A stretch of 35,993 nt of DNA from NCBI GenBank assembly GCA_021783235.1, contig JAJXUD010000047.1, forward strand, positions 1 through 35,993. The letters run 5' to 3'. The first letter of the stretch is position 1; each line of letters begins with the position of its first letter. Source of the DNA: Myxococcales bacterium (GTDB lineage Bacteria > Myxococcota > Myxococcia > Myxococcales > JAKAPL01). The notes beneath the pieces are model-generated. The model had not been told where the DNA came from and did not search any database. It worked only from the letters and a program-made list of their open reading frames with translations. A program made the translations under genes and the position numbers. Shown here piece by piece: positions 4,116 through 25,796 of this stretch.

Positions 4116-4634
4116 TCAGGCCGGCTGCGCCGCCGCCTCGGCGAGCGCGCGCTCCTCGAGCTTGATTCGCCCGCGGAGCAGCCAGAGGTTCGCGGGAAAG
4201 AAGATCGCGAGGCTCCTCGGCGCGCCGAGCAGGAGCGGGATGAGGAGAAACTCGAGCGAGACGATGAGGTAGTTCGGGTGGCGGAGCCAGCGGTAGGGCC
4301 CCCGGCGCACGAGCGGGCTCCCGGGGACGGTGACGATCCGCACGTTCCAGCGCCTCCCGAGCGACGCGATGCAAGAGAGCCGGCAGAGCTCGAGCGAGAG
4401 GAGAGAGGCGAGCAGGGCGAGCTGGACGCCGTCGAGCCTGACCGGCCGTCTCCTCGACTCGAGCCAGAGCGCCGGGAGGAAGAGCCCGTGCATGAGCGCG
4501 ATGGGCCAGAAGCGCTCGGGGAATCGCTCGCGGCCCCCTTCGGCCAGGGCGAGCCGGAGATTCCGGCGGGAGAGCCAGAGCTCGAAGAGGCGCTGGCCGC
4601 CGAGGATCGCGACGATCGAGCCGGCCGGGATCAA
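4116..4634 (-). CDS. isoprenylcysteine carboxyl methyltransferase-like protein (BpsB/YpbQ-like)
   Basis: This integral membrane methyltransferase is about 172 residues long. The motif RRGPYRWLRHPNYL is the SAM-binding signature of the ICMT family, and several hydrophobic segments surround it (LLASLLSLELCRL, YLIVSLEFLLIPLLL). Length and context fit Bacillus YpbQ/BpsB, which methylates alkylpyrones made by the type III PKS encoded beside it (established for Bacillus). The start is a TTG at 4634 overlapping the PKS stop as TTGA. It gives MIPAGSIVAILGGQRLFELW, the usual N-terminus for this family. A start 32 codons upstream would only add a Gly/Arg-rich shadow of the PKS C-terminus. Predicted role: O-methylation of the PKS product in the inner membrane. 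Confidence 0.82.
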   Translation of the reverse strand: MIPAGSIVAILGGQRLFELWLSRRNLRLALAEGGRERFPERFWPIALMHGLFLPALWLESRRRPVRLDGVQLALLASLLSLELCRLSCIASLGRRWNVRIVTVPGSPLVRRGPYRWLRHPNYLIVSLEFLLIPLLLGAPRSLAIFFPANLWLLRGRIKLEERALAEAAAQPA

Positions 4635-5680
4635 CGGACGTCCGAGACGAGCAGGAGCTCGGCGGAGAAGCCGGGACCGAAGGCCGAGAGCAGCCCCTGG
4701 CCCCCGTGGATCCCCTGGCCCGCGAGCCACCTCTCGAGGACGAGGAGGACCGACACCGAGGAGACGTTGCCGTGATCCCGCAACACCTCGGCCGTCAGCG
4801 CCAGATCCTCGTCCGTGAGTTGCAGCGCCTGCTGGTAGGCGTCGATGACCCGCGCCCCGCCCGGGTGGGTTAGGTAGAACTGGAAGCGCTCGAGCTTCGC
4901 CTCGCGCCGCAGCTCCGCCGCCAGCGCGGGCAGCTCCCGCTTCACGATCGCGGGGAGCTTCGGCGAGAGCACGAGCCCGAGCCCCTCGTCGACGACGTTC
5001 CAGCCCATGACCTGGTAGCTGTCCGGGAAGAGGTGGGAGCGCGTGCGGAGGATCTCGGCTCCCGTCCGGCCGGTCGCGTCCCCCGCCACGAGCGCGGCCG
5101 CCGCGCCGTCGGCGAAGAGGGAGGCGGCGACGACGTTCCGCTTGGTGGCGTCGGCGTCGACCAGGGTCAAGCTGCAGGTCTCGAGCGCGACGACGAGCGT
5201 GAGGCTCTCGGGGAAGGCGCGGCAGAACTCGAAGGCGCGCCCGAGGCCCGCGGCCCCGCCCGCGCAGCCGAGGCCCCAGATCGGCACGCGGATGGTGCTG
5301 GGGCGGAGCCCGAGCTCGTTGATCAGGTACGCGTCGGGGGTCGGCGCCGCGATCCCCGTCGAGGAGACCCAGAGGACGCGATCGATCTCGCGAGGCGCGA
5401 CGTCGGCGCGCGCGAGGCAGCGCCGGGCCGCCTCGCGCGCCAGCGCGCCCCCCTCGTCCAGGTAGATTCGGCTCCGCTCGACGGTCGTCCGTGGGCGGGC
5501 GTACCAGTCGAGCGGCCGCATGAGCTGCCGCCGCTCGATCCGGGAGTGGTCGAAGATGCGGAGGGTCTCTTCGAGGTCGGGGAGCCGCTCGGCGAAGAGG
5601 GAGGCCGTCGCCTGGCGAAGCTCCGCTTGGGAGTAGACGTGCTCCGGGAGGGCGGAGGCCGCTCCCACGATGGTCGGCAT
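4631..5680 (-). CDS. type III polyketide synthase (chalcone synthase-like)
   Basis: This 349-residue homodimer-type ketosynthase condenses a fatty-acyl or aromatic starter with malonyl-CoA. The catalytic triad is intact: Cys139 in WGLGCAGGAAG, His272 in YLTHPGGARVID, and Asn305 in DHGNVSS. The closing GFGPG-type loop appears as FGPGFSAELLLV (334-345). Its size matches bacterial BpsA/PKS18-type enzymes. It lies immediately upstream of, and overlaps by 4 nt, the membrane methyltransferase gene. By analogy with BpsA-BpsB the pair probably makes methylated alkyl-pyrones or resorcinols, which are membrane-associated lipids. The starter chain length cannot be read from the sequence. Preceded by an 80-bp spacer from the HTH-like gene on the same strand. 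Confidence 0.9.
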   Translation of the reverse strand: MPTIVGAASALPEHVYSQAELRQATASLFAERLPDLEETLRIFDHSRIERRQLMRPLDWYARPRTTVERSRIYLDEGGALAREAARRCLARADVAPREIDRVLWVSSTGIAAPTPDAYLINELGLRPSTIRVPIWGLGCAGGAAGLGRAFEFCRAFPESLTLVVALETCSLTLVDADATKRNVVAASLFADGAAAALVAGDATGRTGAEILRTRSHLFPDSYQVMGWNVVDEGLGLVLSPKLPAIVKRELPALAAELRREAKLERFQFYLTHPGGARVIDAYQQALQLTDEDLALTAEVLRDHGNVSSVSVLLVLERWLAGQGIHGGQGLLSAFGPGFSAELLLVSDVR

Positions 5681-7967: not shown

Positions 7968-8945
<978 letters not shown>

Positions 8946-8957
8946 GGCAGAGTCTAG

Positions 8958-8992
8958 TGCCGATTCGGCAGGGGACGCAAGCCGATCTGGCG
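8958..8992. promoter_or_regulatory. candidate upstream activator sites: paired dyads 22 bp apart
   Basis: TGCCGATTCGGCA at 8958-8970 is a perfect 6+1+6 dyad. AGCCGATCTGGCG at 8980-8992 matches it at 9 of 13 positions, with centres 22 bp apart, about two helical turns. They lie about 116 and 94 bp upstream of the predicted sigma-54 start, a usual distance for enhancer-binding proteins. They also lie just upstream of the activator's own ATG, which would allow autoregulation. An additional palindrome GCGGCGCGCCGC sits at 8992-9003. Assignment to the adjacent activator is inference. Confidence 0.5.
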
Positions 8993-9053
8993 CGGCGCGC
9001 CGCTTCGGCCGCCTGATCTCGCGCGGTTCCGCTCGAACGGGCGGCCTTCGGGT

Positions 9054-9069
9054 TGGCGCGGTCGATGCA
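9054..9069 (+). promoter_or_regulatory. sigma-54 (-24/-12) promoter of the Ehr operon
   Basis: TGGCGCGGTCGATGCA matches the consensus TGGCACG-N4-TTGCA at 10 of 12 specified positions. The invariant GG (9055-9056) and GC (9067-9068) have the required 10 nt between them. Predicted transcription start is near 9080, leaving a leader of about 50 nt before the ATG at 9130, which has an AGGAGAAGC Shine-Dalgarno. A PspF-like activator gene is adjacent and divergent. Confidence 0.72.
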
Positions 9070-9129
9070 AAGGAACGCCGGGTCACGTTTGTCCGGCCCT
9101 GGGGTCGTGCGTCCAGGCAGAGGAGAAGC

Positions 9130-9837
9130 ATGCAGCTGACGGTGCGGGAGACGGCCTCCTACCTGAACGTCTCCGAGAAGACCATCTACCGCTGGATCCG
9201 GACCGGCGAGCTGCCGGCCTACCGCGTCCACGATCAGTACCGCTTCAACCGGGTGGAGATCCTCGAGTGGGCGGCGGCGAAGCGGATCAACGTCTCGCCG
9301 GACATCTTCGTGGAGCCCGAGAGCGTCGGTCGGCCGCTGCCGAGCCTCGCCGAGGCCTTCCGCACGGGCGGGATCCACTACCGGGTCGGCGGCGAGACCA
9401 AGGAGGAGATCCTCCGCGCCGTCGTCGGCCTCCTGCCCACGCCGGAGGGGCTCGACCGCGAGTTTCTCCTGCGCATGCTGCTCGCGCGCGAGGCGCTCGG
9501 AACGACGGCCCTCGGGCAGGGCATCGCGATCCCCCATCCCCGCAGCCCGATCGTCCTGCCGGGCAGTCGCCCGAGCATCGCGGTCTGCTTCCTCGACCAC
9601 CCCGCGGACTTCGGGGCGCTCGACGGCGAGCCGGTCCACACGCTCCTCGTGATGTCGAGCCCGTCGATCAGGGTCCACCTCCACCTCCTCGCCCGGATCG
9701 CCTGGGCGCTGCGCGGCGAGGGCGTCAGGGCCGCGCTCGCGGCGCGGGCCGATCGCGAGCGGCTGCTCGCGGAGATCGAGCGCGTCGAGCTGGACTCGCC
9801 CGCGCTGCGCCCCCCGGCCGCGCCTCCGGAAGAATAG
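9130..9837 (+). CDS. fused excisionase-type HTH and PTS EIIA (PtsN-like) protein
   Basis: This 235-residue two-domain protein starts with a MerR/excisionase-like HTH at residues 1-52 (LTVRETASYLNVSEKTIYRWIRTGELPAYRV, then FNRVEILEWA). A PTS EIIA domain of the fructose/nitrogen class occupies about residues 70-225. The phosphorylatable histidine is His136 in GQGIAIPHPR. The domain's conserved LDGEPVHTLLVMSSPS and HLHLLARIAW are intact. The likely role is a phosphorylation-responsive regulator or adaptor tying complex expression or activity to PTS/energy state (inference). It is the first gene after the sigma-54 promoter, and its stop TAG abuts the ATG of the HyfB-like gene. No EIIB/EIIC genes are nearby, so sugar transport is unlikely. 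The start is supported by AGGAG just upstream. Confidence 0.87.
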   Translation: MQLTVRETASYLNVSEKTIYRWIRTGELPAYRVHDQYRFNRVEILEWAAAKRINVSPDIFVEPESVGRPLPSLAEAFRTGGIHYRVGGETKEEILRAVVGLLPTPEGLDREFLLRMLLAREALGTTALGQGIAIPHPRSPIVLPGSRPSIAVCFLDHPADFGALDGEPVHTLLVMSSPSIRVHLHLLARIAWALRGEGVRAALAARADRERLLAEIERVELDSPALRPPAAPPEE

Positions 9838-11844
9838 ATGACGCTCTTTCTCCTCGCCGAAGCCGTCCTCGTCGGGGGCGGCGCGGTGGCGTTCGCCGCG
9901 AGCGCCCGGCCGGGCCTCGCCCTGCGCCTCGGCAGCCTCGCCGGCGCGCTGGGATCGGCGCTCGGGCTCTGGGCGGCGCTCGGTGCGCTCGTCGCGCCCG
10001 GCCCCGTCCGGCTGACGATCGAGGGCTTCGGCGCGGCCGGGGCGATCCCGCTGCGGCTCGACGGGCTCGCCGCGTTCTTCCAGCTCCCGGTCTTCGCGCT
10101 CGGCGGCCTCGGCGCCGTCTACGGCCTCGGCTACCTGCGCCACGCCGGGCCGCGGCGCTCGCTCGGCGCCTTCATCCTCGCCTACGACCTCCTCGTCGCG
10201 TCCATGGCGCTCGTCACCGTCGCGGACGGCAGCCTCGTCTTCCTGTTCGGCTGGGAGCTGATGTCGATCTCCTCCTACGTCCTCGTGACCTTCGAGCACG
10301 AGGACGCCCGGGTTCGAGCGGCGGGCCGCATCTACCTCTTCGCCTCGCAGCTCGGCGCCGCCTGCCTCTTCGGCCTGTTTCTCGCGCTCGGCCAGCGCGC
10401 CGGCGGCCTCGACTTCGAGCGGCTCGCGGCGCTGCGGGCCGACGTGGGGCTGCGCGCCTGGCCCTTCGTCGCGCTCGCCGTCGCGGGCTTCGGCGCGAAG
10501 GCGGGCCTCGTTCCGATCCACGTCTGGCTGCCCGAGGCCCACCCGGCCGCCCCGAGCCACGTCTCGGCCCTCATGTCGGGGGCGATGACCGCGATCGGGA
10601 TCTACGGCCTCGTCCGGCTGCTCTGGTTCCTGCCGCCTCCGCCGGTCGCCCTGGGCCTCTTCTTCGCCGCCGTCGGCCTCGGCGGCGCGCTCTTCGCCAT
10701 CGCCCAGGCGATCGGCGAGCGCGACGTCAAGCGGCTGCTCGCCTACTCGACCGTCGAGAACGTCGGCATCGTGGCGCTCGCGCTGGGCGCCGGCCTCGTC
10801 GGCCTCTCCGAGAACGCGCCCGCGCTCTCCGCCCTGGCCTTCACGGGCGCGCTGCTCCACGTCTGGAACCACGCGCTCGCGAAGGGGCTCTTGTTCATGG
10901 GGGCGGGAGCGCTCGCGCAGGCGGCGGGGACGCGCGACGCCGAGCGGATGGGGGGTCTCATCGCCCGGCTCCCGCGGACGGCCTCCCTCTTCATCCTCGG
11001 CGCGGTGGCCCTCGCCGGGCTGCCCCCGCTGAACGGCTTCGTCTCGGAGTGGCTCCTCTACCTCGGCCTCTTCGACGCCGCGGCGGGGCTCCCGCGGGCC
11101 CTCTCGGGCGCGGCCGCGCTCGGGGGCGTCGGGCTCGCCGCCACCGGCGCGTTCGCCGCCATCGCCTTCACGCGCCTCTGCGGCGTCGCGCTGCTCGGAC
11201 AGCCGAGGAGCGAGGCGGCCGCGCGCGCCCGGGAGCCGTCGCCGCTGATGATCGCGCCGATGGCCATCGCCGCCGCGGGCTGCCTCGCCATCGCCCTCGC
11301 TCCAATGCCCTTCGTCCGCCTGATCGCGCCCGTCGCGGCGGCGCTCGCGGGCGTTCCAGCGACGGCGCTCGCGGCGGGGCTCGGGCCGGGCCGGGCCGCC
11401 CTCTCGGGACCTCTGCCGGCGCTGGCCCTCGCGCTCCTGCTCGGCGCGTCGGCGCTCCTCGCGCTGCGATTCCTCCTCGGCCGGCGGGCCGAGCGGCGCC
11501 TCGGCGCCACCTGGGGCTGCGGCTACCCCGCGCCGACCGCCCGCATGCAGTACGGCGCGGCCTCCTTCTCCCAGCTCGCCCTCGAGGCCACGCTCCCGCG
11601 GGCGCTCCGGCCGGCCCGCGTCGAGACGCCGCCGGAGGGGCCGTTCCCCGCCCGCGCCGCGCTGCGCACCGAGCCCTCCGATCCGGCGATGCAGCGGCTC
11701 TTCGCGCCGCTCTTCGCGGCCACCGCCGCCCGCTTCACCCGCCTGCGGGCCCTCCAGGCCGGGCGGCTCGACGTCCAGCTCGTCTATCCGCTCGTCGTGA
11801 TCCTCGCCCTCGCGGCGCTCCTCTGGATCGGCCCGTGGAGCTGA
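9838..11844 (+). CDS. hyfB: HyfB/NuoL-like antiporter subunit 1 of Ehr complex
   Basis: This polytopic inner-membrane protein of 668 residues has roughly 14-16 transmembrane helices. It belongs to the Mrp/NuoL/HyfB ion-translocating family. Key charged residues of the channel are visible: Glu in FLFGWELMSISSYVL (TM5), Lys in GFGAKAGLVPIHVWLPEAHPAAPSH (TM7), and Lys in NHALAKGLLFMGAG (TM8). The C-terminal extension carries ATWGCGYPAPTARMQY followed by a hydrophilic stretch and a last TM helix (YPLVVILALAALLWI). This layout is typical of HyfB/HycC. It would conduct protons or sodium coupled to the peripheral arm. Its stop overlaps the next start by 10 nt. Confidence 0.88.
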   Translation: MTLFLLAEAVLVGGGAVAFAASARPGLALRLGSLAGALGSALGLWAALGALVAPGPVRLTIEGFGAAGAIPLRLDGLAAFFQLPVFALGGLGAVYGLGYLRHAGPRRSLGAFILAYDLLVASMALVTVADGSLVFLFGWELMSISSYVLVTFEHEDARVRAAGRIYLFASQLGAACLFGLFLALGQRAGGLDFERLAALRADVGLRAWPFVALAVAGFGAKAGLVPIHVWLPEAHPAAPSHVSALMSGAMTAIGIYGLVRLLWFLPPPPVALGLFFAAVGLGGALFAIAQAIGERDVKRLLAYSTVENVGIVALALGAGLVGLSENAPALSALAFTGALLHVWNHALAKGLLFMGAGALAQAAGTRDAERMGGLIARLPRTASLFILGAVALAGLPPLNGFVSEWLLYLGLFDAAAGLPRALSGAAALGGVGLAATGAFAAIAFTRLCGVALLGQPRSEAAARAREPSPLMIAPMAIAAAGCLAIALAPMPFVRLIAPVAAALAGVPATALAAGLGPGRAALSGPLPALALALLLGASALLALRFLLGRRAERRLGATWGCGYPAPTARMQYGAASFSQLALEATLPRALRPARVETPPEGPFPARAALRTEPSDPAMQRLFAPLFAATAARFTRLRALQAGRLDVQLVYPLVVILALAALLWIGPWS

Positions 11845-13799
11845 CCCTCGGCCTCGCGGGGGCGGCCGTCGCGCTCGCGTCCGCGAGCGGCCTTCTGGGC
11901 TTCGCCTTCGAACGGCCGGCCGCCCAGCGGATCGCCGCCGCCTCGATGGGCACGGGCGCCGCCTGCGCCTTCGCCGCCGCGGGGCGGGCCTTCGCCTCCG
12001 GGGTCCCGGCGACCATGACCTTCGCCGGCTGGCTCGGCGGCGCCACGCTGCGGCTCGACGGGCTCTCCGCCCTCTTCCTCCTCCCGGTCTTCGCCATCGG
12101 CGCCCTCGCCTCCCTCTATGGCGTCGGCTACTACCCGGTGGCCGAGCTTCGCGGGAAGGCCCGCCGCTGGCAGCTCTTCCACGGCGTCGCCATCGCGGGG
12201 ATGGGGCTGCTCTTGCTCGCCGACGACGCGCTCGTCTTCCTCGTCGCCTGGGAGGCGATGGCGCTCGCGAGCTTCGCGCTCGTGCTCGTCGAGGACGAGC
12301 GGGCAGAGGCCCAGAGGGCGGCGTTCGTCTACCTGGCCGCGACCCACGTGGCGACCCTCGCCCTCTTCGGACTCTTCGCGCTGCTCGCGCGGCCTTCGGG
12401 CTCGTTCTCGTTCGCGTCGCTGGCCGGCGAGCTGCCGGGCTCCCCCTGGCTCCTCGCCCTCCTCGGGCTCGGCTTCGGGGTGAAGGCCGGCGCGATGCCG
12501 CTGCACTTCTGGCTGCCCGACGCCCACGCCGCCGCGCCGAGCCACGTCTCGGCGCTCCTGTCGGGCGTCGTGCTCAAGATGGGCGTCTACGGCCTCTTGC
12601 GGCTGAGCGGGCTCCTCGAGACGCCGGCGAGCTGGGGCTGGGTCGTGCTCGCGGCCGGAGCCACCTCGGCGCTCCTCGGCGTCGTCTTCGCGCTCGCCCA
12701 GCACGATCTCAAGCGGCTGCTCGCCTACCACAGCGTCGAGAACATCGGGATCATCCTCATGGGCGTCGGGCTCGCGCTCCTCGGCCGGACGTACGGCGAG
12801 GGCGCGCTCGTGGCGCTCGGGCTCGGCGGCGCCATCTTCCACGTCCTGAACCACGCGACCTTCAAGTCGCTGCTCTTCTTCGGCGCGGGCGCGGTCCAGC
12901 ACGCGACCGGAAGCCGGCAGCTCGACCGGCTGGGCGGCCTCGCGCGCCGCATGCCCGTGACGGCGCTCTGCTTCCTCGTGGGCGCCGCCGCCATCAGCGG
13001 GCTCCCTCCGCTGAACGGCTTCGCGAGCGAGCTCCTCCTCTACCTCGGCTTCGGCCGTGCGCTCCTGGGCCGCTCGGCGATCGCCTTCGCCGGGCTCGCC
13101 GCGGCGGCGCTGGCGCTCGTCGGAGGGCTCGCCGCCGCCTGCTTCGCGAAGGCCTTCGGCGTGATCTTTCTCGGCTCGCCGCGCGGGCCCGCCGCGGCCG
13201 AGGCGCACGAGGCCAAGGCGACCATGCGGCTCTCGATGGCGATCCTCGCCGCGGCCTGCGCACTCCTCGGCCTCTTCCCGAGCCTGATCCGAGGCGCGCT
13301 CCGCTCGGCCGTGCTCGCCTGGGACCGGCGGCCCGGGGCGCCGCCGGCGGCCTGGGCGGCGCCGTCGGCCGCGCTCGGCTGGCTCGGCGTCGTCGGGCCG
13401 CTGCTCCTCGCCGCGGCGCTGCTCGCCTGGGCGATCCGTAGGGCCGCCGGCCGCGCGCCGTCGCCCACGGTGGCGACCTGGGGCTGCGGCTACCCCGCCC
13501 CGACTCCGCGGATGCAGTACACGAGCAGCTCGTTCGCCGATCTCCTCCTTCGCGCGCTGCCTTGGCCGATCGTGCGCCACGAGCGCTCGGAGCTCTCGGC
13601 CGCGCCGTTCCCGGCCCGTGGCTCCTTCTCGAGCCACGCCGAGGATCCGGTCCTCGACGTCGGCCTCGCGGCGGCCGCCCACGCGTTCGGCGCCGGGGCG
13701 CGCCAGCTCCGGCGCGCCCAGCGCCCCTCGCTCCACGCGAACGTCCTCGTGCTCCTGCTCGTCCTCGTCTCCCTGCTCGCCTGGAGGCTCCGCTGGTGA
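11835..13799 (+). CDS. hyfB: HyfB/NuoL-like antiporter subunit 2 of Ehr complex (tandem paralogue)
   Basis: This 654-residue polytopic membrane protein is paralogous to the preceding gene along its whole length. Channel residues: Glu in FLVAWEAMALASFAL, Lys in GFGVKAGAMPLHFWLPDAHAAAPSH, and Lys in NHATFKSLLFFGAG. It shares the C-terminal module TWGCGYPAPTPRMQY, then APFPARGSF, then a terminal TM helix. The start is GTG at 11835, inside the end of the upstream gene. This gives VELTLGLAGAAVALA, aligned with the start of the first copy. Together with the HyfF-like subunit the complex would have three antiporter-type channels. The end overlaps the next gene by GTGA. Confidence 0.87.
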   Translation: MELTLGLAGAAVALASASGLLGFAFERPAAQRIAAASMGTGAACAFAAAGRAFASGVPATMTFAGWLGGATLRLDGLSALFLLPVFAIGALASLYGVGYYPVAELRGKARRWQLFHGVAIAGMGLLLLADDALVFLVAWEAMALASFALVLVEDERAEAQRAAFVYLAATHVATLALFGLFALLARPSGSFSFASLAGELPGSPWLLALLGLGFGVKAGAMPLHFWLPDAHAAAPSHVSALLSGVVLKMGVYGLLRLSGLLETPASWGWVVLAAGATSALLGVVFALAQHDLKRLLAYHSVENIGIILMGVGLALLGRTYGEGALVALGLGGAIFHVLNHATFKSLLFFGAGAVQHATGSRQLDRLGGLARRMPVTALCFLVGAAAISGLPPLNGFASELLLYLGFGRALLGRSAIAFAGLAAAALALVGGLAAACFAKAFGVIFLGSPRGPAAAEAHEAKATMRLSMAILAAACALLGLFPSLIRGALRSAVLAWDRRPGAPPAAWAAPSAALGWLGVVGPLLLAAALLAWAIRRAAGRAPSPTVATWGCGYPAPTPRMQYTSSSFADLLLRALPWPIVRHERSELSAAPFPARGSFSSHAEDPVLDVGLAAAAHAFGAGARQLRRAQRPSLHANVLVLLLVLVSLLAWRLRW

Positions 13800-14707
13800 T
13801 CCCCGTCGCCCTCGCTCTCGCCCACGCCGCGCTCGCGCTCCTCTGGCCGCCGCTCCTCCTCGGCCTCATCGGCCGCGTGAAGGCCCGGCTCGCGGGGCGC
13901 GTGGGGCCGCCGCTCGTCCAGCCGTACCGCGACCTCCGGAAGCTCCTCCAGAAGGGCTCGGTCTACAGCCGCACGACCAGCTGGCTCTTCCGCGCCGGGC
14001 CCGTCGTCGGCCTGGCCGCGGTCCTCTGCGCCCTGCTGATCTTGCCCGTGGGAGGACGCCCCGGGCCGCTCTCGTTCCCCGGGGACTTCGTCGCCCTGGT
14101 CTACCTGCTCGGCGTCGCGCGCTTCTTCACGGTGCTCGCGGCCCTCGACACGGGCTCGTCGTTCGAGGGGATGGGCGCCGCCCGGGAGGTCACCTTCTCG
14201 AGCCTCGCCGAGCCGGGCCTCTTCTTCTGCCTCCTCGCGCTCGGGCGCATGGCCTCCGGCTGGAGCCTCTCGCGGATGATCTCGCTCGCCCCGGCGAGCC
14301 CGGGGGCGGGGCCGGCGCTCGTCCTCGTCGGGGTCGCCCTCCTCGTCATCGCCCTCGCCGAGAACGCCCGCATCCCGGTCGACGATCCCGCGACTCACCT
14401 CGAGCTGACGATGATCCACGAGGTCATGGTCCTCGATCACGGCGGGCCGGATCTCGCGCTCATCTCCTACGGCGCCGCGCTGAAGCTCTTCGTCTTCCTC
14501 GCCCTGATCGCGGGGCTCGCCCTGCCGCCGGGCCTCGTCGATCCCGGGCTGCGCCTCGTCGCCTTCGCCGCTCTCACCGCCGCCCTCGCCGTCGCGATCG
14601 GGCTCGTCGAGTCGCTGATGGCGCGGCTGCGCCTCGTCAACGTGCCGCAGCTCCTCGTCGGGGCGGCGGTCCTCTCGGGCTTCGGCCTGATCCTGGTTCT
14701 CCGGTGA
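13796..14707 (+). CDS. hyfC: HyfC/HycD (NuoH-like) membrane anchor subunit
   Basis: The product has 303 residues and about eight transmembrane helices, in the NuoH/HyfC/HycD family. This subunit joins the peripheral Fe-S arm to the antiporter modules. Family signatures: KARLAGRVGPPLVQPYRDLRKLLQKGSVYS after the first helix, the acidic loop ENARIPVDDPATHLELTMIHEVMVLDHGGPDLAL, and a final hydrophobic pair of helices. The conserved Glu/Asp loop is the region thought to transmit coupling in complex I relatives. The GTG start overlaps the upstream TGA as GTGA, placing the initiation codon exactly before the first helix. Confidence 0.9.
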   Translation: MIPVALALAHAALALLWPPLLLGLIGRVKARLAGRVGPPLVQPYRDLRKLLQKGSVYSRTTSWLFRAGPVVGLAAVLCALLILPVGGRPGPLSFPGDFVALVYLLGVARFFTVLAALDTGSSFEGMGAAREVTFSSLAEPGLFFCLLALGRMASGWSLSRMISLAPASPGAGPALVLVGVALLVIALAENARIPVDDPATHLELTMIHEVMVLDHGGPDLALISYGAALKLFVFLALIAGLALPPGLVDPGLRLVAFAALTAALAVAIGLVESLMARLRLVNVPQLLVGAAVLSGFGLILVLR

Positions 14708-14712
14708 CGCCC

Positions 14713-15372
14713 ATGCCCGAAGCCGCCATCCGCCTCGTCGACGTGCTCCTCATCCTGATCGTGCTGCTCGATCTCTTCGCCCTGGGCACGAGCCGGATCA
14801 ACGCCATCATCCGCGCGGTCGCGCTCGAGGGCGCGCTGCTCGCCGCCCTGCCGCTCGCGATCGAGGGGGGCCACGGGCTCGGGTCGGTGGCGATCCTCCT
14901 CGCCGCGGGGACGCTCGTCATCAAGGCCATCGTCGTGCCGCGGATGATGCTCTGGGCCATCCGGGAGGCGTCCATCCGGCGGGAGGTCGACCCGCTGCTC
15001 GGCTTCGTGCCGTCGCTCATGCTCGCCGGGGTCGGCATCGGCCTCTCGTTCGCCCTGGCCCGGCAGCTCCCGCTGCGGGGCCTCGGCGCGGCCACCTACC
15101 TGGTCCCCGCCGCGCTCTCGTCCGTCTTCTGCGGGCTGCTCCTCATCGTCACCCGCAAGAAGGCGATCACGCAGGTGGCCGGCTTCCTCGTCCTCGAGAA
15201 CGGGGTCTACCTCGTCGGCCTCCTGCTCGCCTCGGTCATGCCGTGGATGGTCGAGGCGGGGGTGCTGCTCGACCTGTTCGCGGCGATCTTCGTGATGGGA
15301 ATCGTCATCTACCACATCAACCGCGAGTTCTCGTCGATCGACACGGCGAAGCTCACCTCGCTGAAGGACTGA
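14713..15372 (+). CDS. hyfE: HyfE-like (NuoK-related) membrane subunit
   Basis: This hydrophobic protein of 219 residues is very close to E. coli HyfE in length. Visible helices include VLLILIVLLDLFALG, VAILLAAGTLVIKAIVVPRMM (with a membrane Lys), and the NuoK-like C-terminal part ITQVAGFLVLENGVYLVGLLLA with its buried Glu. The C-terminus is MGIVIYHINREFSSIDTAKL, matching the HyfE family ending. The ATG at 14713 is chosen. A GTG at 14704, overlapping the previous stop as GTGA like other junctions here, is equally possible and adds three residues. It supplies the NuoK/NuoJ-equivalent part of the membrane arm. Confidence 0.85.
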   Translation: MPEAAIRLVDVLLILIVLLDLFALGTSRINAIIRAVALEGALLAALPLAIEGGHGLGSVAILLAAGTLVIKAIVVPRMMLWAIREASIRREVDPLLGFVPSLMLAGVGIGLSFALARQLPLRGLGAATYLVPAALSSVFCGLLLIVTRKKAITQVAGFLVLENGVYLVGLLLASVMPWMVEAGVLLDLFAAIFVMGIVIYHINREFSSIDTAKLTSLKD

Positions 15373-15373
15373 C

Positions 15374-16801
15374 ATGCTCTGGTCGCTCGTCCTCTCGCCG
15401 TTCGCCCTCGCCGCCCTCGCGGCGGTCGCTCCGGGGGCGGGCCGGCGCCGGCCGCTCCTCCTCCTCGCGGGAGCGCTCCTCCACGCCGGCGGAGTCGCCT
15501 GGATCTGGATCGCGCCGCCGGAGCCGACGCGCTGGCTCGCCGCCGATCCGCTCGGCAAGATCGTCCTCACCACCGCCTCCACGCTCTTTCTCGCCTGCGC
15601 GATCTACGCGCAGGGCTACCTGCGGAGGCGCGAGGACCGGGACGACCGGGTCTTCGTGGCCGGCCTCTTGGCCTTCCTCGGGGCGATGACCCTCGCCGCG
15701 CTGGCGCAGCACCTCGGTCTGCTCTGGATCGCGATCGAGGCGACGACGCTCGCGAGCGCGCCGCTCGTCTACTTCGAACACGACGCCCGCTCCCTCGAGG
15801 CCACCTGGAAGTACCTCCTCATCTGCTCGGTCGGCATCGCGCTGGCGCTCCTCGGCACCTTTCTCATCGCGCTCGCGGCGACGAACGGCGAGCCGCCGGT
15901 GCGCTCGCTCATGCTCGCCGACCTGCGGGCCGGCGCGGCGGGGCTCTCGCCCCCGTGGCTCGAGGCGGCCTTCGTCTTCATCCTCGTCGGCTACGGGACG
16001 AAGATGGGGCTCGCCCCGCTCCACTCCTGGAAGCCGGACGCCTACGGCGAGGCGCCGGCGGTCGTGGGCGCCCTCTTGTCGGGCGCGCTGACGAACTGCG
16101 CCTTCCTCGGCATCCTCCGGCCGCTCGGGATCCTGCGCGCGGCCGGCCACGCCGGCTTCGCGCTCGAGGCGCTCGTGGTCATGGGCCTCTTCTCGATGGC
16201 GCTGGCGGCGGTCTTCGTCGTGGGGCAGCGCGACTTCAAGCGGATGCTCGCCTACTCGAGCGTCGAGCAGATGGGCGTCCTGGCGTTCGGCGTGGGGATC
16301 GGGGGGCCCGCGCTCGCCTTCGCGATGTTCCACATCGTCAACAACGGCCTCGCGAAGGGCGTGCTCTTCCTCTCGGCGGGCAACATCCACCGCTCGTTCG
16401 GGAGCAAGCGGATCGAGGTCGTCCGAGGCGCGGCCCGGCGGCTCCCGCTCTCGGGCCCGCTCTTCTTGCTCGGCTTCTTCGCCGTCACCGGCTCGCCGCC
16501 GTTCGGCCCCTTCTTCTCGGAGTTCGGCATCCTGAACGGCGCGTTCGGCGCCGGCCGCTTCCTCGCGGGCGGCCTCTTCCTGGGCCTCCTCGCGATCGTC
16601 TTCATCGGCATGTCCGTGACCGTCCTGCACGTCGTCCAGGGCGATCCCGAGGGGGCTCCCGAGATCGCGGGCATGGGGGACAGCTGGCTCACCGCCGCGC
16701 CGCCGCTCGTCCTGCTCGTGGCGGTCGCCTGGCTCGGCCTCTTTCTGCCCGGGCCGATCCACCGCCTCTTCCTGTCGGCGGCCACGGCGCTCGGAGGGTG
16801 A
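15374..16801 (+). CDS. hyfF: HyfF/NuoM-N-like antiporter subunit of Ehr complex
   Basis: This polytopic protein of 475 residues is shorter than the two HyfB-like subunits and lacks their C-terminal extension, as expected for HyfF. Channel residues: Glu in LLWIAIEATTLASAPLVYFEHD, Lys in GYGTKMGLAPLHSWKPDAYGEAPA, and Lys in NNGLAKGVLFLSAGN. The HyfF-specific sequence around the TM7 lysine distinguishes it from NuoL. The motif RDFKRMLAYSSVEQMGV is also present. It is the third putative ion channel in the operon. The start ATG follows the upstream stop by one nucleotide, and its end overlaps a possible GTG start of the next gene. Confidence 0.9.
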   Translation: MLWSLVLSPFALAALAAVAPGAGRRRPLLLLAGALLHAGGVAWIWIAPPEPTRWLAADPLGKIVLTTASTLFLACAIYAQGYLRRREDRDDRVFVAGLLAFLGAMTLAALAQHLGLLWIAIEATTLASAPLVYFEHDARSLEATWKYLLICSVGIALALLGTFLIALAATNGEPPVRSLMLADLRAGAAGLSPPWLEAAFVFILVGYGTKMGLAPLHSWKPDAYGEAPAVVGALLSGALTNCAFLGILRPLGILRAAGHAGFALEALVVMGLFSMALAAVFVVGQRDFKRMLAYSSVEQMGVLAFGVGIGGPALAFAMFHIVNNGLAKGVLFLSAGNIHRSFGSKRIEVVRGAARRLPLSGPLFLLGFFAVTGSPPFGPFFSEFGILNGAFGAGRFLAGGLFLGLLAIVFIGMSVTVLHVVQGDPEGAPEIAGMGDSWLTAAPPLVLLVAVAWLGLFLPGPIHRLFLSAATALGG

Positions 16802-16806
16802 CGACC

Positions 16807-18291
16807 ATGCTCGAACTCACCAACGCCACCGCCGTCTCCCGCCGAGAGATCCCGGCGCTGGCCGCCGACGCCTTCCGATCCGCGCTCGGGGATGCGCTGC
16901 GGGGCGGCGCGCGGCTCGGCGCCCTCTTCGGGCGCGAGGGGGCCGCCGGCGAGGCGATCCTGACCGCCGTCGTGAACGACGACGGCGTCGGCGCCTCCCG
17001 GGTCGTCGAGGCCCGCGTGCGCGGCGGCTACCCGTCGCTGACCTCCGAGTGGCCGGAGGCGCAGGCGTTCGAGCGCGAGCTCTTCGAGGAGACGGGCGTC
17101 GTCCCCGAGGGCCACCCCTGGCTCAAGCCGCTTCGCTTCCCGCCGCGGCCGGGGGGGGAGGGCGCGGCGTCGATCCCGGGCGCCTACCCCTACTTCGCGG
17201 TGGAGGGCGAGGAGGTCCACGAGGTCGCGGTCGGGCCGGTCCACGCCGGCGTCATCGAGCCCGGCCATTTCCGCTTCCAGTGCCACGGCGAGCGGGTCCT
17301 CCACCTCGAGATCCAGCTCGGCTGGCAGCACCGGGGCGTCGAGGAGCTCCTGCGGGGCGGGCCGACGAAGCGGACCCTCTCGATCGTGGAGACCATCGCG
17401 GGCGACACGACCATCGGCCACGCGATTGCCCACTGCGAGCTTCTCGAGGCGCTCTCGGGCGGGGTCGCTCCGCCGCGCGCGCAGGCGCTGCGCGGGGTCG
17501 CGCTCGAGCTCGAGCGGCTCGCGAACCACGTGGGCGACCTCGGGGCGCTCGCGGGCGACGTCGGTTTCCTGCCGTCGGCGTCGTTCCTCGGCCGGCTGCG
17601 CGCGGAGTTTTTGAACGCGACGGCGGAGATCTGCGGGAGCCGCTTCGGCCGCGGCCTCCTCGTGCCCGGCGGGGTGCGCTTCGACGTCGGAAGCGAGGCC
17701 GCCGCGGCGCTCGCGGTCCGGGTGGAGAAGGCCGTTCGGAGCGTGCAGGCCGCCGCCGACCTGTTCTTCGACGCGCCCTCCGTGCGCGGCAGGACCGACG
17801 GGGTGGGCGTCGTCGCCCCGGCGCTCGCCGCGAGCCTCGGGCTCGTCGGGCCTGCGGCGCGCGCCTGTGGCCTCGCGCGCGACGTCCGCCGCGACCACCC
17901 GTCGGGCATCTACCGCTTCGCCTACCTCCCGGCCGTCCTGGCACAGCACGGCGACGTCTTCTCCCGGGCCTGGATTCGCCTCCTCGAGGCCGAGCGGAGC
18001 GCGGCGTTCGTGGCCCAGCAGCTTCGCTCGCTCCCCGGGGGGCCCGTGCGGGTGGCGCTGGGCAGCCTGGCGCCGGATCGGCTCGCGCTCTCGCTCGTCG
18101 AGGGCTGGCGCGGCGAGATCTGCCACGTGGCGCTGACCGGCGCGGACGGCCGCTTCGAGCGCTACGACGTCACCGACCCCTCCGTCCACAACTGGCTCGG
18201 CCTCGCCATGGCGCTCCGGGGCGAGCAGATCTCGGACTTCCCGCTCTGCAACAAGAGCTTCAACCTCTCGTACGCCGGACACGACCTCTAG
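16807..18291 (+). CDS. HyfG/HycE-like (NuoC-NuoD fusion) subunit lacking NiFe ligands; Ehr large subunit
   Basis: This 494-residue protein fuses an N-terminal NuoC/30-kDa-like domain (about 1-130) to a NuoD/49-kDa-like domain (about 135-494). EVAVGPVHAGVIEPGHFRF and LGWQHRGVEELL are shared by NuoD and HycE. In true group 4 hydrogenases the next segment is ERICGIC, and the C-terminus has a DPCxxC pair; together these bind Ni and Fe. Here the first pair is ETIAGDTTIGHA (195-206), with no cysteines. The C-terminus FPLCNKSFNLSYAGHD has only Cys481. It therefore should not bind a NiFe centre, the defining feature of Ehr complexes. The natural substrate is unknown. The ATG at 16807 is preferred; GTG at 16798 is the alternative. 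Confidence 0.88.
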   Translation: MLELTNATAVSRREIPALAADAFRSALGDALRGGARLGALFGREGAAGEAILTAVVNDDGVGASRVVEARVRGGYPSLTSEWPEAQAFERELFEETGVVPEGHPWLKPLRFPPRPGGEGAASIPGAYPYFAVEGEEVHEVAVGPVHAGVIEPGHFRFQCHGERVLHLEIQLGWQHRGVEELLRGGPTKRTLSIVETIAGDTTIGHAIAHCELLEALSGGVAPPRAQALRGVALELERLANHVGDLGALAGDVGFLPSASFLGRLRAEFLNATAEICGSRFGRGLLVPGGVRFDVGSEAAAALAVRVEKAVRSVQAAADLFFDAPSVRGRTDGVGVVAPALAASLGLVGPAARACGLARDVRRDHPSGIYRFAYLPAVLAQHGDVFSRAWIRLLEAERSAAFVAQQLRSLPGGPVRVALGSLAPDRLALSLVEGWRGEICHVALTGADGRFERYDVTDPSVHNWLGLAMALRGEQISDFPLCNKSFNLSYAGHDL

Positions 18292-18301
18292 AGGACCGCC
18301 C

Positions 18302-19156
18302 ATGTCCCTCCTCGACATCCTCCGCGTCCGCGCCCGCGAGGGGCGCCAGACCGTCGCCTACCCGGACGGACCGGTGAAGCTTCCGGAGCGCTTCCGCGGC
18401 CGTCCGACCCTCGACGCGAGCCGCTGCCCCGACGGCTGCGAGCGCTGCGCGGAGGCGTGCCCCACGGACGCCGTCGGACCGCTCGGAGCCGGGGCGGGTG
18501 GCGTCGGCCTCGACCTAGGCCGCTGCCTCTTCTGCGCCGATTGCGTCGAGGCCTGCCCCGAGGGGGCGATCGCGTTCACGCGGGACTTCAGGCTCGCGGC
18601 GCGGACGCGCGGCGCGCTCGTCGTCCAGCGCGACGAGGCGCTGCTCGCCGAGGCGCTCGGACAGAAGCTTCGCGAGCTCTTCGGCCGATCGCTCAAGCTG
18701 CGAGAGGTCTGCGCCGGCGGCTGCAACGGCTGCGAGGCGGAGCTGAACGCCTGCGGCAACATCCAGTTCGACATGGGGCGCTTCGGCATCCAGTGGGTCG
18801 CCTCGCCGCGCCACGCCGACGGCCTCGTCCTCACGGGGCCGGTCACCGAGAACATGCGCGACGCCCTGCTTCGGACCTACGAGGCCATCCCCGCGCCGAA
18901 GCTCGTCATCGCGGTGGGCGCCTGCGCCATCAGCGGCGGCCCCTTTCGCGGCAGTCCCGCCGTGCGGGACGGCGTCGGCGACCTGCTGCCGGTCGATCTC
19001 TGGCTGCCCGGCTGCCCGCCGCACCCGCTGACGTTCCTCGACGGCGTCCTCCGGCTCCTCGGGCGCGTGCAGGGGGGGCGCGAGGCCGAGATCGTGCGGC
19101 TGCCCCAGGCGACCAGCGAGAGCCGGGCCGCCGCCGGGGCGCTGAAAGGGCGCTGA
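18302..19156 (+). CDS. fused 8Fe ferredoxin-HyfI/NuoB-like electron transfer subunit
   Basis: This 284-residue peripheral subunit joins a HyfH-like two-cluster ferredoxin domain to a HyfI/HycG/NuoB-like small subunit. Cluster 1 ligands are Cys42, 46, 49 and 53, with spacing CxxxCxxCxxxCP, one residue longer than the standard first gap. Cluster 2 is standard (Cys75, 78, 81, 85). The small-subunit proximal cluster is CNGCEAEL (Cys141, Cys144) with VGACAISGG (Cys208) and LPGCPPHP (Cys238). Together they form a wire of three [4Fe-4S] clusters from a soluble donor such as ferredoxin to the interface with the NuoD-like subunit. An ATG with spacing of about 8 nt after the upstream stop is used. It is the last gene of the operon. 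Confidence 0.9.
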   Translation: MSLLDILRVRAREGRQTVAYPDGPVKLPERFRGRPTLDASRCPDGCERCAEACPTDAVGPLGAGAGGVGLDLGRCLFCADCVEACPEGAIAFTRDFRLAARTRGALVVQRDEALLAEALGQKLRELFGRSLKLREVCAGGCNGCEAELNACGNIQFDMGRFGIQWVASPRHADGLVLTGPVTENMRDALLRTYEAIPAPKLVIAVGACAISGGPFRGSPAVRDGVGDLLPVDLWLPGCPPHPLTFLDGVLRLLGRVQGGREAEIVRLPQATSESRAAAGALKGR

Positions 19157-19246: not shown

Positions 19247-19828
19247 ATGAGGACGCCCATGCCGAGCCGCCTTCGAATCGTCGCCGTTCATGCTCTGGCG
19301 CTCGCCGCCGTCGCCTGCGGCAGGCCGGGAGGGTCGTCCTCGGGCGGCGGAGGGGGCTGCAACGAGCCGGGCGCGAGCGGCAGCGTGATGCTCTCGGGCA
19401 TGGGGCAGACCGCGAACGTCAGCTGCTTTGCCGCGGTCTACACCGCGGGATCGCCGCAGTCGGAGCTGGACGTCTTCAGCGACGTGCCCTCGGGCCTCGA
19501 CTCGCCGTCCCTCAAGCTCACCATGGCCGTGGGGCAGGGCTGCAGCCCCGCGAGCGGCCAGTCGATCTCGCTCGTCCCCCCGGACGGGGGAATCAACCCG
19601 TGCCTCGTCGTCGTCTGCGGCGGCTGGGACGCCGGCAGCTGCGGCAATGTCGGCACGGGGCAGGACGTCGCGGGCAGCGTGATCCTGGACCACTGGAGCA
19701 CGACCCCCGGCGACTCGGTCACGATGCACTTCTCGAGCGACGCCTCGCTCGGCCTCCTCGAGAACCAGGGCGGCTTCCAGCCGCTGAGCGTCAGCGGCAG
19801 CTTCACCGCCCCGGTCAGCGCCCCCTGA
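19247..19828 (+). CDS. small Gly/Ser-rich lipoprotein, hypothetical
   Basis: The protein has 193 residues with a lipoprotein signal peptide (HALALAAVACG, lipidated Cys24 with Ala-Val-Ala before it). A flexible SSSGGGGG linker follows, then a compact domain with several cysteines (GCNEPG, SCFAAVY, GQGCSPAS, PCLVVVCGGW, GSCGN) that could form disulfides. No family is recognised. It would be tethered to an envelope membrane. ATGs at 19247 and 19259 are both usable; the first is taken. It stands alone after the Ehr operon and converges on the exported-protein cluster, with only 7 nt between stops. Confidence 0.68.
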   Translation: MRTPMPSRLRIVAVHALALAAVACGRPGGSSSGGGGGCNEPGASGSVMLSGMGQTANVSCFAAVYTAGSPQSELDVFSDVPSGLDSPSLKLTMAVGQGCSPASGQSISLVPPDGGINPCLVVVCGGWDAGSCGNVGTGQDVAGSVILDHWSTTPGDSVTMHFSSDASLGLLENQGGFQPLSVSGSFTAPVSAP

Positions 19829-22148: not shown

Positions 22149-23828
22149 CTATTGGGAAGCCGGGCAGCCAGCCGTGAAGTCCGTCGGCTGGACGGTCACC
22201 ACGCCGCCCGCCGGCGACTTGACGCCGGCGACCGGGTAGCGCGCGGAGAGAAGGTGGGCCTGCCGCATCTGCGTCGGCGCGTCGGGGGCGTCGGCGGGCA
22301 CCATCGCGTAGGAGAGGTAGAGGTCGTTGACGCCGGCGCCGCGGCCGGTGTCGAGCGTGTCGGCGAGCAGAACGTTCGAGACGTTGAAGTCGTAGCACTG
22401 CCGCCCCTGTGCGTCGGGCGGGCCCGAGACCGAGAGCTCGTAGCGGTAGGCGATCTCGGAGAGGGTCGCCGCGTCGGCGACGAGCGGGTTCGAGTGAAGC
22501 CGCAGCTCGGTGCCGTTCAAGAGGCCGTCGCTGTCCGGGTCGAAGAGCAGGTCGCGCGTCGTCGGCTGCGTGCCGAGGAGCCACTCGAGCCCGTCGGGGG
22601 CGCCGTCGCCGTCGGTGTCGACGAGCTGCGCGTTCGTGCCGATGAGCATCTCGTCGCAGTCCGAGAGGCCGTCGCAGTCGCTGTCGACGCCGATGAGCGC
22701 CGCCGGGCAGCCAGGGTCGGGCCGGAGCGGGTCCAGGTTCGCGCCGAGCCGGGCGAGCGCCACCTCGAGGCCGTCCGAGAAGCCGTCGCCGTCGGTGTCC
22801 CGCCGCCGGGGGTCGGTACCGATCGCCACCTCCTCGGCGTCGGTGAGCCCGTCGCCGTCGGAGTCCGCGAGGCCGAGCGGGCTGTCGGGGGGGGCCGAGA
22901 GGTTCGCGGCGTAGATCTGCTTGAGCACGAAGGGCCGGCGGAGCTCGCCGAGCGTGAACGAGAGGAAGTTGATCGGCTCGTCGTTCTCGAAGTCGCGGAA
23001 CTGGCCGCCGCCCCAGCTCGCCATGTTGGCGAGCCGCTGGGCGTCCTGGGCGATGATGAGGCCCGGGCAGTTCGGGGTCCCGCCGTCGGCCGGGACGATG
23101 CAGCCGGCGGCCACCGGCGTCGCCGGGTTGAAGACGTGGACAGTGTCGAGCTGCACGCTCTCGACGAGCGCGCCGAGGTCCGCGATCCGCTTGCAGGCGC
23201 CGGGCAGCTCGCCGTCCTCGTCGAACGTCGGCGAGCCGTCCGAGAGGAAGATCGCGTAGTAGCGCGGCGGCGCGGTGGCGCCCGCGTCCGCTCCGCCGTC
23301 CGCGCCCGAGAGGAGGGCGAGCGGGATGTCGCTCGCGATCATCGTGTAGATGTCGTTCAGCGGCTTGATGAAGTCGGTCGACTGGGCGTTGTTCGCCGGG
23401 TTCGTGTACTCGAGCAGCGTCTGCACGAGCGTGTTCATCTGGGACGGCGAGTAGGTCACGAGCTGGTCGAAGCCCGGCGCGCCGCCGTGGGTGAGGTAGG
23501 TGACCGCGGGCCCCGCGAAGACGAGCACCGAGAACCAGACGTTCGGGTCCTGCGGGAAGCTCTGCAGGAGGCTCGCCATCGCCTCGGCGCGCTGACCCTG
23601 CGGGTCCGAGACGATCATGGAGCCGGTGGCGTCCATCGCGAAGATGATCTTGATGGGGCTCACAACGTCGTCGGGGCCGAGCGTGCAGAGCTGGCCCTGC
23701 AGCGCGACCTCTCGGTCGATGGGCGGCGGGGCCGGGCTGCCGAGCTCGTAGAGGTAGCTGCTCGTGCAGGAGGAGCAGGCGAGCCCGAGGAGGGCGAGCC
23801 TGCGGATCACGGCGCGACGCCCGCGCAC
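22149..23828 (-). CDS. VWA-TSP3 lipoprotein A (metal site DATGS) with C-terminal CYDF domain
   Basis: This 559-residue exported protein has a VWA fold at about 57-300, including strand [13 protein letters not shown] and a MIDAS-type DxTGS at 66-70. The second metal-site loop is IFLSDGSP (196-198). TSP3-like calcium repeats ([36 protein letters not shown]) span about 322-450. A C-terminal domain begins with [11 protein letters not shown] and contains NDLYL. The N-terminus has a hydrophobic signal with Cys18 and Cys21; the lipobox is not ideal, so lipidation is likely but not certain. The start region overlaps the upstream paralogue's end by 22 nt, indicating coupled translation. Metal-dependent ligand binding at the cell surface is the inferred role. 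Confidence 0.8.
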
Positions 23829-25792
23829 TGGGTCGCCGTGTCGGTGAGCTGGCCTGCCGGAACGAAGTACGAGGAGCCGTTGGGCTTGTTCAGGGAGAGG
23901 TCGGGCCCCGCGGGCACGCGAAGCTGCGGCGGCGAGTACTCGGCCCAGGCACAGGCGCTCTTCCAGACGCCGTAGTCGGTGGCGAGGGTCGAGGAGGGCG
24001 CCTCGTCGAACCAGATCTTGTAGAGATCGTAGCCGTCGCGCTGCCCGGTGTGCGCCGGCGTCTGCAGCAGCTTCAGGTTGGACACGCTGAAATCATAGCA
24101 GGTGGTGCCGTCCGGCTGCGCCGTCCCCGTGACGTCGTACTGGTAGCCGTCGGTCGTGTAGAGCTGCGCGTCGGCCGTGGTAGGGTCGGTGTTGGCGCGG
24201 AACTCGTCCCAGTCGGAGACGCCGTCGCCGTCGGTGTCCTTCGCCGCGAAGTCGTCGTACTTCGTCGGGTCGAAGCCGTAGCGCGCCTCGAGGCCGTCGG
24301 GCACGCCGTCGCCGTCCGAGTCGACCATGCCCGGGTTCGAGCCGAGGTACGCCTCGGCGTACTGCGAGAGCCCGTCGCCGTCGGTGTCGGCGCAGACGCA
24401 GGCCGGCGCCGGCGGGGGCAGGCAGCCGCGAGCGTCCGGCACGATCGGGTTGAAGCCGTCGGCCTGGTGGCGCACCTCGAAGCCGTCGTCGAAGCAGTCG
24501 CTGTCGGTGTCGGGGTCGAAGGCGCTCGTGCCGATCGTGAAGGAGTTGTCGATCGTGTCGGGCAGCCCGTCGCCGTCGCTGTCGAAGATCCGCCCCGCGG
24601 GAGTCGGCACCGAGGTGAGCGACTGGACGATGAGGTTCTTCATGACGTACGGCGCCGCGAGCGAGGTGTAGTCGAGGCCGCCGAGCGAGAGGTCCTGGAT
24701 CTGGCCGTTCGTGAAGGCCTGGAAGACGCCGTTGCCGAGCTTCGCCATCTGGCCGAGCAGCCACGAGGCCGCCTTGAAGGTCTCCTGCGGGTAGTTCGCC
24801 GGGTTCACTCCCGGCCAGGTGCCGTAGACGTCCTGGCAGATCGTCCCGCACTGCTGCACCGCCGCCTGGTTCAGCAGGAGCACCGTGTCGAGCCGGATGC
24901 TCCCCACGTTGTAGCGGCTCTGCAGCGCGGTGATCTGGTTGATGGCGTCGAAGACCTGGTAGTTCTGGTTCAGGTCGGTCCCGGCCTTGAACCCCGCGAC
25001 ACAGCTGCTGTTCCCGCTGATGAGCGACGTGCTGTTGCTCGCGGCCTGGCAGATGGACGGCAGCTTCGTGCAGTAGTCGCTCTCGTTCTGCCAGGTGAGC
25101 CACGGCTGCTCGGGGGTCGCGTAGTCCTGGGGCGGCAGGTTCGTCGCCGCCGTGCAGCGCGGATAAGGCGTCCCGTCGGTGAGGAAGACGATGACGTAGC
25201 GGGTGCGCGGCAGCTCTTCGGGCGGGCTCGCCGAGATGTCGGCCGAGATGAGCTCGTAGGTGTAGGCGAGCACGCCCTGGTAGTCGGTTCCGTTGCCGAG
25301 CTCCGTCTGCAGTTGGTCGATGAAGGCGTCGGTCGTGCCGTCCGGCGGCGCGAACTGGAGGTTGTTGTTCGGCCAGACGTTCAGGACGTTCGTCTCGAAC
25401 GGGACGATCGCCACCTGCACGTTCGACTGCCCCGCGAACTGCTTGTCGATGAGCTGGTGGATCGCCCGCACGCGCGCCGGCTGGGTCTGGCCCGGCGGGA
25501 AGGTCGAGACGACCTGCGGCATCTCGCAGAAGCCGTTGCCCTGCTGGGAGCCCGGTGGGTCGGAGATGCACATGCTGCCCGACTCGTCGACGATGAAGAC
25601 CACCTTCACCGGGAAGTCGTTCGGGTTCGGCGGATCGGTGCAGACGCGGCCGGTGAGCGTCAGCCGGTCGTCGAGCGCCTGATCCGCGGTCGGCAGCGGC
25701 TCGACGAGCGCGCCCGTGCAGGAGACGAAGAAGGCCGCGAGGAGCGTGAAGCTCCCCGCGGCCTTTCCGCTTGTCGCGATGCGGCTCGGCAT
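23807..25792 (-). CDS. VWA-TSP3 lipoprotein B (metal site DESGS) with C-terminal CYDF domain
   Basis: The product has 661 residues. The VWA domain is at about 60-395: strand [14 protein letters not shown] with a canonical MIDAS DxSGS (69-73), and [10 protein letters not shown] (205-207). It is larger than its neighbour because of a Cys-containing insert ([13 protein letters not shown] to GTICQDVYG). TSP3-like repeats occupy about 404-541 ([45 protein letters not shown]). The C-terminal module starts with [11 protein letters not shown] and contains YDLYK. The ATG at 25792 is chosen because it places a signal sequence ([11 protein letters not shown], candidate lipid Cys25) at the N-terminus. 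A further upstream start would overlap the preceding gene by 68 nt. It starts 4 nt after that gene's stop. Confidence 0.82.
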
Positions 25793-25796
25793 CGGA

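Follow-up and report, generated by a model that had tools for sequence, protein, structure and literature searches.

A nearly gapless plus-strand operon at positions 9130-19156 of a 35,993-nucleotide stretch of DNA from a Myxococcales bacterium (contig JAJXUD010000047.1; the whole stretch is called the window) almost certainly encodes a member of the Ehr (Ech-hydrogenase-related) family of membrane complexes. At a rough probability of 45%, Ehr is read here as a ferredoxin-fed, ion-pumping oxidoreductase that uses an acceptor other than quinone and is regulated by the phosphotransferase system (PTS). The operon extends from a gene for a helix-turn-helix (HTH)-EIIA protein through the gene for the small subunit, EhrS. 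Its seven structural genes (9838-19156) follow the order HyfB1-HyfB2-HyfC-HyfE-HyfF-HyfG (large subunit, EhrL)-Fd/HyfI (EhrS), where Fd denotes a ferredoxin domain, and Pfam or NCBIfam matches are strong for all subunits but HyfE. The host genome comprises 4.58 Mb, is 97% complete and falls into one order with a family of 4-5 Mb genomes that appear to be Anaeromyxobacter-like.

Ehr is already known as a kind of complex. Named earlier for Geobacter, it has also been described in comammox Nitrospira, the Candidate Phyla Radiation and Margulisbacteria (PMC7894505, PMC10284858, PMC7304191, PMC6349859). With these the window locus shares its operon plan, the lack of NiFe ligands, the presence of one or two EhrA (HyfB) proteins and an Fe-S small subunit, but it differs in having HTH-EIIA at the operon head and a degenerate HyfB1. 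An original prediction, made from the letters of the window alone, had proposed an Ehr complex of undefined substrate with the same order of genes. It was correct in substance: ligand loss, phylogeny and operon content all bear out the assignment, and the coordinates and gene order were confirmed. It had passed over the HTH-EIIA gene at 9130, residue Glu151, the replacement motif of the large subunit and the existence of relatives lacking clusters. The present analysis adds a link to a PTS regulator, a description of what took the place of the NiFe site, evidence that speaks against quinone binding there, and relatives without the N2 cluster.

The large subunit and its replacement site

EhrL (16807..18291, plus strand) is a fused NuoC/NuoD (HycE-like) protein of 494 amino acids, with matches to Complex1_49kDa (1e-32) and to HycE of formate hydrogenlyase (FHL; 2e-49). 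By sequence, HycE is its nearest structural homologue (7z0s_E, 2e-49), followed by Thermus NuoD and MbhL, and the AlphaFold model (pLDDT 88, pTM 0.90) likewise has 7z0s_E, the HycE/NuoCD fold, as its top PDB match. The protein was aligned with 107 Ehr-type relatives together with HycE, HyfG, MbhL, MbsL and NuoD. One relative with four Cys (L114) was set apart, leaving 106 that were scored at the ligand columns; residue conservation was scored in 105.

The four NiFe ligand columns of EhrL are occupied by Ala, Thr, Ser and Gly. E195-T-I-A-G-D200 aligns with RVCGIC of HycE, and NLSYAGHDL with DPCYSCTDR. Cys is absent from these columns in 105 of the 106 relatives, the exception (L006) having a single Cys, and a search for hidden NiFe ligands was negative. 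The C-terminus, NLSYAGHDL, coincides with the point at which mature HycE terminates and has no extension of the kind removed by a maturation protease. In the whole genome, at its 97% completeness, neither a PF00374 hydrogenase nor HypD (PF01924) was detected, and control profiles did match. The complex thus has neither the four Cys ligands nor the HypD expected of a group 4 [NiFe] hydrogenase. The earlier claims that the CxxC pairs are replaced (ETIAGD at 195-200), that maturation genes are missing from the window and that the complex cannot be a NiFe hydrogenase all held. A single C-terminal Cys had also been pointed out; Cys481 is indeed conserved (96/105) but does not occupy a NiFe ligand column. 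Since position 490 is Cys in 81/105 relatives and Ala in the window protein, a metal site built on Cys481 and residue 490 is no rule of the family.

In place of the lost ligands, a different set of residues is nearly invariant: Gly199 and Glu151 in 105/105 relatives, Asp200 and Asp457 in 104/105, and Asn482-Lys-Ser-Phe485 in 104/105, within a fixed C-terminal pattern of N-K-S-F-N-L-S-Y-x-G-x-D-L. Gly199, Asp200, Asn482-Lys-Ser-Phe485 and Glu151 are invariant in a second alignment of 50 sequences (A3) as well. Glu151, His154 and Arg156 match hydrogenases rather than NuoD, and Glu151 aligns with Glu21 of MbhL, a proton-reduction (proton-transfer) residue of the hydrogenase (PMC7684303). Judged from these alignments, the former NiFe pocket has turned into another conserved site instead of a dead one, and we infer that chemistry takes place at E151/G199-D200/NKSF. 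The idea of a decaying, functionless hydrogenase is scarcely credible. Geobacter Ehr has been called non-functional in one 2026 paper (PMC13194489) and HyfB1 of the window is without one Lys, but the reading frames are open, residues are invariant across many phyla, among them the new motifs of the former NiFe pocket, and Ehr subunits are produced in Geobacter (PMC7894505).

The residues that bind the quinone headgroup in Thermus NuoD, His38 and Tyr87, align with Ile150 and Gly199 of EhrL and with Ile and Gly in 105/105 relatives; the quinone-like site entertained in the original prediction is therefore unsupported. The architecture of complex I, along with a HyfC/NuoH subunit that might admit quinone, could still point to a cut-down complex I working as an oxidoreductase between ferredoxin, or another low-potential donor, and quinone. 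That reading is very doubtful given the missing His and Tyr, the hydrogenase-like EPGHFR loop and the two separate NuoD-type complex I proteins encoded in the host genome.

Among solved structures, FHL/hydrogenase 4 (HycE, HyfG; 7z0s) is closest in fold, with a TM score of 0.86 and 27% identity across 500 columns, and it shares the EPGHFR loop and the HyfB/C/E/F order. The window, however, lacks its NiFe ligands, C-terminal extension, HyfA/HycB/FdhF and HypD, and its small subunit carries a fused dicluster ferredoxin. The sulfane sulfur reductase MBS of Pyrococcus (6u8y, PMC7684303) is a ferredoxin-fed relative that is not a NiFe enzyme, has two antiporter-like pump subunits and is devoid of the quinone residues. 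Unlike the window protein, which has no Cys at the ligand columns and four N2 Cys, MbsL retains two NiFe Cys and a three-Cys proximal cluster, and Glu21, the equivalent of which is present in EhrL, is reported absent in MBS (PMC7684303). Complex I (NuoD/NuoB) resembles the window complex in architecture and in the loss of all four NiFe Cys, whereas the window lacks the quinone His/Tyr and the NADH module and has the hydrogenase CxxC instead of the NuoB tandem CC.

In a FastTree phylogeny, EhrL falls among the large subunits of other Ehr complexes and separately from HycE/HyfG, MbhL and NuoD. The operon encodes a group 4-type large subunit without CxxC pairs together with antiporter-like, HyfC/HyfE and Fe-S small subunits. 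The relative set apart above, L114 (genome G161, contig C37, 3921-6420), adjoins all Ehr large subunits with a support of 99, on a tree with long outgroup branches and an uncertain root. It has all four NiFe Cys and ends in KSFELCYSCTDR, with no C-terminal extension. Lying at the base of Ehr, it may connect the family with hydrogenases, and its position is as expected if a group 4 hydrogenase gave rise to Ehr.

The iron-sulfur wire and the membrane arm

EhrS (18302..19156, plus strand) is a dicluster ferredoxin domain fused to a HyfI/NuoB-like N2-cluster domain, recognised by Fer4 and Oxidored_q6 with MbhJ and HycG as best PDB matches. Eight Cys in the ferredoxin domain (42, 46, 49, 53, 75, 78, 81 and 85) and four at N2 (141, 144, 208 and 238) give the 12 ligands of three [4Fe-4S] clusters, so the complete wire proposed earlier is present. 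Each N2 Cys is found in 100-101 of 106 relatives.

A complete wire characterises the window member and not the Ehr family, as several relatives have lost parts of it. In L088 and L090, Cys 42, 46, 49 and 85 are lost jointly, which removes one ferredoxin cluster cleanly; both ferredoxin clusters or the entire domain are absent from L069, L070, L073, L080, L003, L004 and L115. The N2 Cys are gone from L008 (11516-12325), L054 (11542-12384), L140, L169 and partly L057, in proteins that are otherwise well conserved (xxAEE / VGAEA / PGWPP); the small subunit of L169 ends at a contig edge. An Allomeiothermus plasmid copy, L002 (13269-14141), also lacks them. All four or most of the Cys are replaced in these small subunits, and Glu and Trp turn up at matching positions in more than one of them. 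In genomes G163 and G164 no Ehr small subunit was found besides the N2-less copy. Four changes are needed to explain N2 loss on the large-subunit tree and three on the small-subunit tree. From these trees, the cluster was apparently lost several times independently, in at least three lineages. A single origin of all N2-less small subunits was considered and rejected, as the trees call for at least three to four changes; recombination is possible.

The membrane arm is encoded on the plus strand by HyfB1 (9838..11844; Proton_antipo_M, 2e-47), HyfB2 (11835..13799, with a GTG start; Proton_antipo_M, 6e-53), the HyfC/NuoH-like membrane anchor (13796..14707; PF00146, 7e-29, and alignment), a HyfE-like membrane subunit (14713..15372; NCBIfam hydrogenase 4 membrane subunit at 3e-23, under its cut-off) and HyfF (15374..16801; PF00361, 2e-46, and hydrogenase 4 subunit F, 7e-95). 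The residues of the three antiporter-like subunits were read from an alignment with E. coli HyfB/D/F and NuoL/M/N. Glu of transmembrane helix (TM) 5, Lys of TM7 and Glu of TM12 are present in all three (E140, K221 and E404 in HyfB1; E140, K217 and E399 in HyfB2; E122, K210 and E383 in HyfF). Lys of TM8 is kept in HyfB2 only (K248); HyfF has Asn241, as does E. coli HyfF, and HyfB1 has Ala252. The claim that the antiporter Lys and Glu are intact is thus upheld apart from TM8 of HyfB1 and the Asn of HyfF. Three channel subunits are found in the window as had been stated, but the number is not fixed: the nearest (sister) genome, G001, has one HyfB only, an orthologue of HyfB2 with 66% identity, and no HyfB1. 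In L111, which by inference is Anaeromyxobacter-like, both HyfB copies are present with Lys in each. Together with Ala252, this pattern suggests that the host lineage is in the course of losing or altering HyfB1.

The HTH-EIIA partner

The first gene of the operon (9130..9837, plus strand) lies directly upstream of HyfB1 and joins an HTH_17 domain (Pfam, 5e-17) to a predicted PTS EIIA domain of the Ntr/fructose type (EIIA_2, PF00359, 3e-19) with His136 as phospho-acceptor in the motif GIAIPHPR. When all reading frames from 84 loci were clustered blindly, HTH-EIIA emerged as the sole widely conserved non-structural neighbour (35 loci). By profile search it stands beside Ehr in 43 of 80 genome-contig loci, and in 37 of the 66 loci having sufficient upstream sequence. 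The pairing occurs in Planctomycetota, Verrucomicrobiota, Myxococcota, Thermodesulfobacteriota, Gemmatimonadota, Fibrobacterota, Spirochaetota and Omnitrophota, and the phospho-acceptor His is conserved in 42/44. Across 156 Myxococcota genomes, 32 have Ehr and 21 a full-length EIIA-HTH; 20 of the latter also carry Ehr (Fisher 5e-16, not corrected for kinship). In 16 genomes the two share a contig, at a distance of about 6-9 kb. Given that the 4.6 Mb host genome contains three EIIA matches, adjacency within 20 kb by chance would be near 1%. HPr is encoded in the host genome as well. Two HPr-family genes, with enolase at the edge of the stretch, lie beside an Ehr operon without a ferredoxin domain on a Burkholderia multivorans plasmid (L004, 2857-5672).

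On the basis of synteny, domains and the retained phospho-His, HTH-EIIA is a putative PTS-responsive regulator of the operon. In E. coli, unphosphorylated PtsN binds and inhibits a K+/H+ antiporter (PMC11808508), so that control of an antiporter-like complex by EIIA is plausible by analogy only. In the literature searched, no paper was found that connects EIIA or the PTS with Ehr or hydrogenase 4, the Ehr papers included, and an earlier mention is possible.

Immediately upstream, and in the opposite orientation, is a gene for a sigma-54-type AAA+ activator with a Fis HTH and no sensor domain (7968..9131, minus strand; Pfam Sigma54_activat, 2e-66, and HTH_8), which probably starts at Met63, near 8945. 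A homologue with 62-66% identity adjoins Ehr in the Anaeromyxobacter-like genomes of L111, L112 and L113. A sigma-54-like match, TGGCGCGGTCGATGCA, with GG-N10-GC at 9054-9069, lies 61 bases before the EIIA start; it is not claimed as a promoter, as 12 such sites were found against 6.6 expected and it is unconserved in relatives.

A working model and its place in the family

In the mechanism considered likeliest, which includes the ferredoxin-type wire coupled to an ion-pumping arm of the original prediction, electrons from reduced ferredoxin (pyruvate:ferredoxin oxidoreductase, PFOR, is encoded in the host genome) would enter both clusters in the ferredoxin domain of EhrS and, as the conserved ligands suggest, continue to N2. 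From there, a small acceptor would undergo proton-coupled reduction in the former NiFe pocket, rebuilt around Glu151, Gly199-Asp200 and the conserved C-terminal pattern. That acceptor would be neither H+ at a NiFe site nor, probably, a quinone. This reduction would power the transfer of H+ or Na+ by way of HyfC/HyfE and the antiporter-like subunits HyfF and HyfB2; HyfB1 would be an additional subunit, partly degenerate. HTH-EIIA may tie expression of the operon to PTS phosphorylation and hence to phosphoenolpyruvate/pyruvate and nitrogen state.

The host genome encodes POR_N and PFOR. Among the Myxococcota genomes, POR_N proteins are found in 30/32 with Ehr and 43/124 without, and single-chain PFOR in 27/32 and 16/124, respectively. 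This co-occurrence fits ferredoxin as a donor and may equally reflect anaerobic life in general. Several points weigh against the model. Anaerobic life style and kinship both confound the association with PFOR, and the donor and the acceptor are proposals from sequence. AlphaFold confidence is low at EhrL 480-494 and the loop 144-150, which would line the site, and HyfB1 lacks the key TM8 Lys. Rhizobial and Burkholderia-type relatives have no ferredoxin domain, and some copies from Planctomycetota and Verrucomicrobiota and one from Allomeiothermus are without the N2 Cys, so that not every Ehr member can depend on electrons reaching the site.

These losses would be expected if Ehr were chiefly a PTS-controlled cation/proton transporter, in which EhrL binds a ligand or plays a mechanical part, as a stator, while the Fe-S wire would be a losable accessory such as a redox gate. 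The antiporter arm and the EhrL site stay constant where the ferredoxin domain is absent, N2 is lost elsewhere with the rest intact (at least three to four losses on the trees), and EIIA is a recurrent partner of a type that inhibits an antiporter in E. coli. Nevertheless, most relatives, the window included, retain all 12 ligands, and a functionless wire would be expected to erode more quickly; conservation of the Glu151/Asp200 site suggests that chemistry occurs there; and the fusion of EIIA with a DNA-binding domain in this operon speaks for control of expression instead of direct antiporter binding. Such a transporter is considered unlikely. The more specific proposal of a PTS-wired ion transporter, with the EhrL site acting on a ligand and the redox wire a dispensable gate dropped several times, as in the N2-less forms, is distinctly unlikely. 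If a non-redox reading were true, the complex I superfamily would include a bacterial branch driven by something besides redox.

The ferredoxin-fed model could also run backwards, with an ion gradient driving ferredoxin reduction from a donor oxidised at the EhrL site, possibly in connection with formate metabolism. The architecture is reversible in principle and Geobacter Ehr subunits increase on formate (PMC7894505), but none of the genes recognised in the window is for a formate dehydrogenase, and neither this enzyme nor another oxidoreductase is a conserved neighbour among the 84 loci. Reverse transport is held to be improbable.

Elsewhere in the window, the operon is directly followed by a gene for a predicted lipoprotein of 193 amino acids (19247-19828), with a Cys past the signal stretch and no Pfam match. 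On the minus strand, two large proteins with TSP3 calcium-binding repeats, one having a VWA-like stretch, are encoded at 22149-25864, and a type III polyketide synthase-like gene (chalcone synthase family) lies at 4631-5680.

Ehr relatives are numerous, with at least 579 encoding stretches in one scan and presence in about 20% of the sampled Myxococcota genomes. The conserved new site, the missing quinone residues, the PTS partner and the losable N2 cluster set testable limits on how an Ehr pump may function. The findings bear on the origin of complex I from hydrogenases, and the PTS partner, recurring across many phyla, provides a new lead to the control of Ehr.

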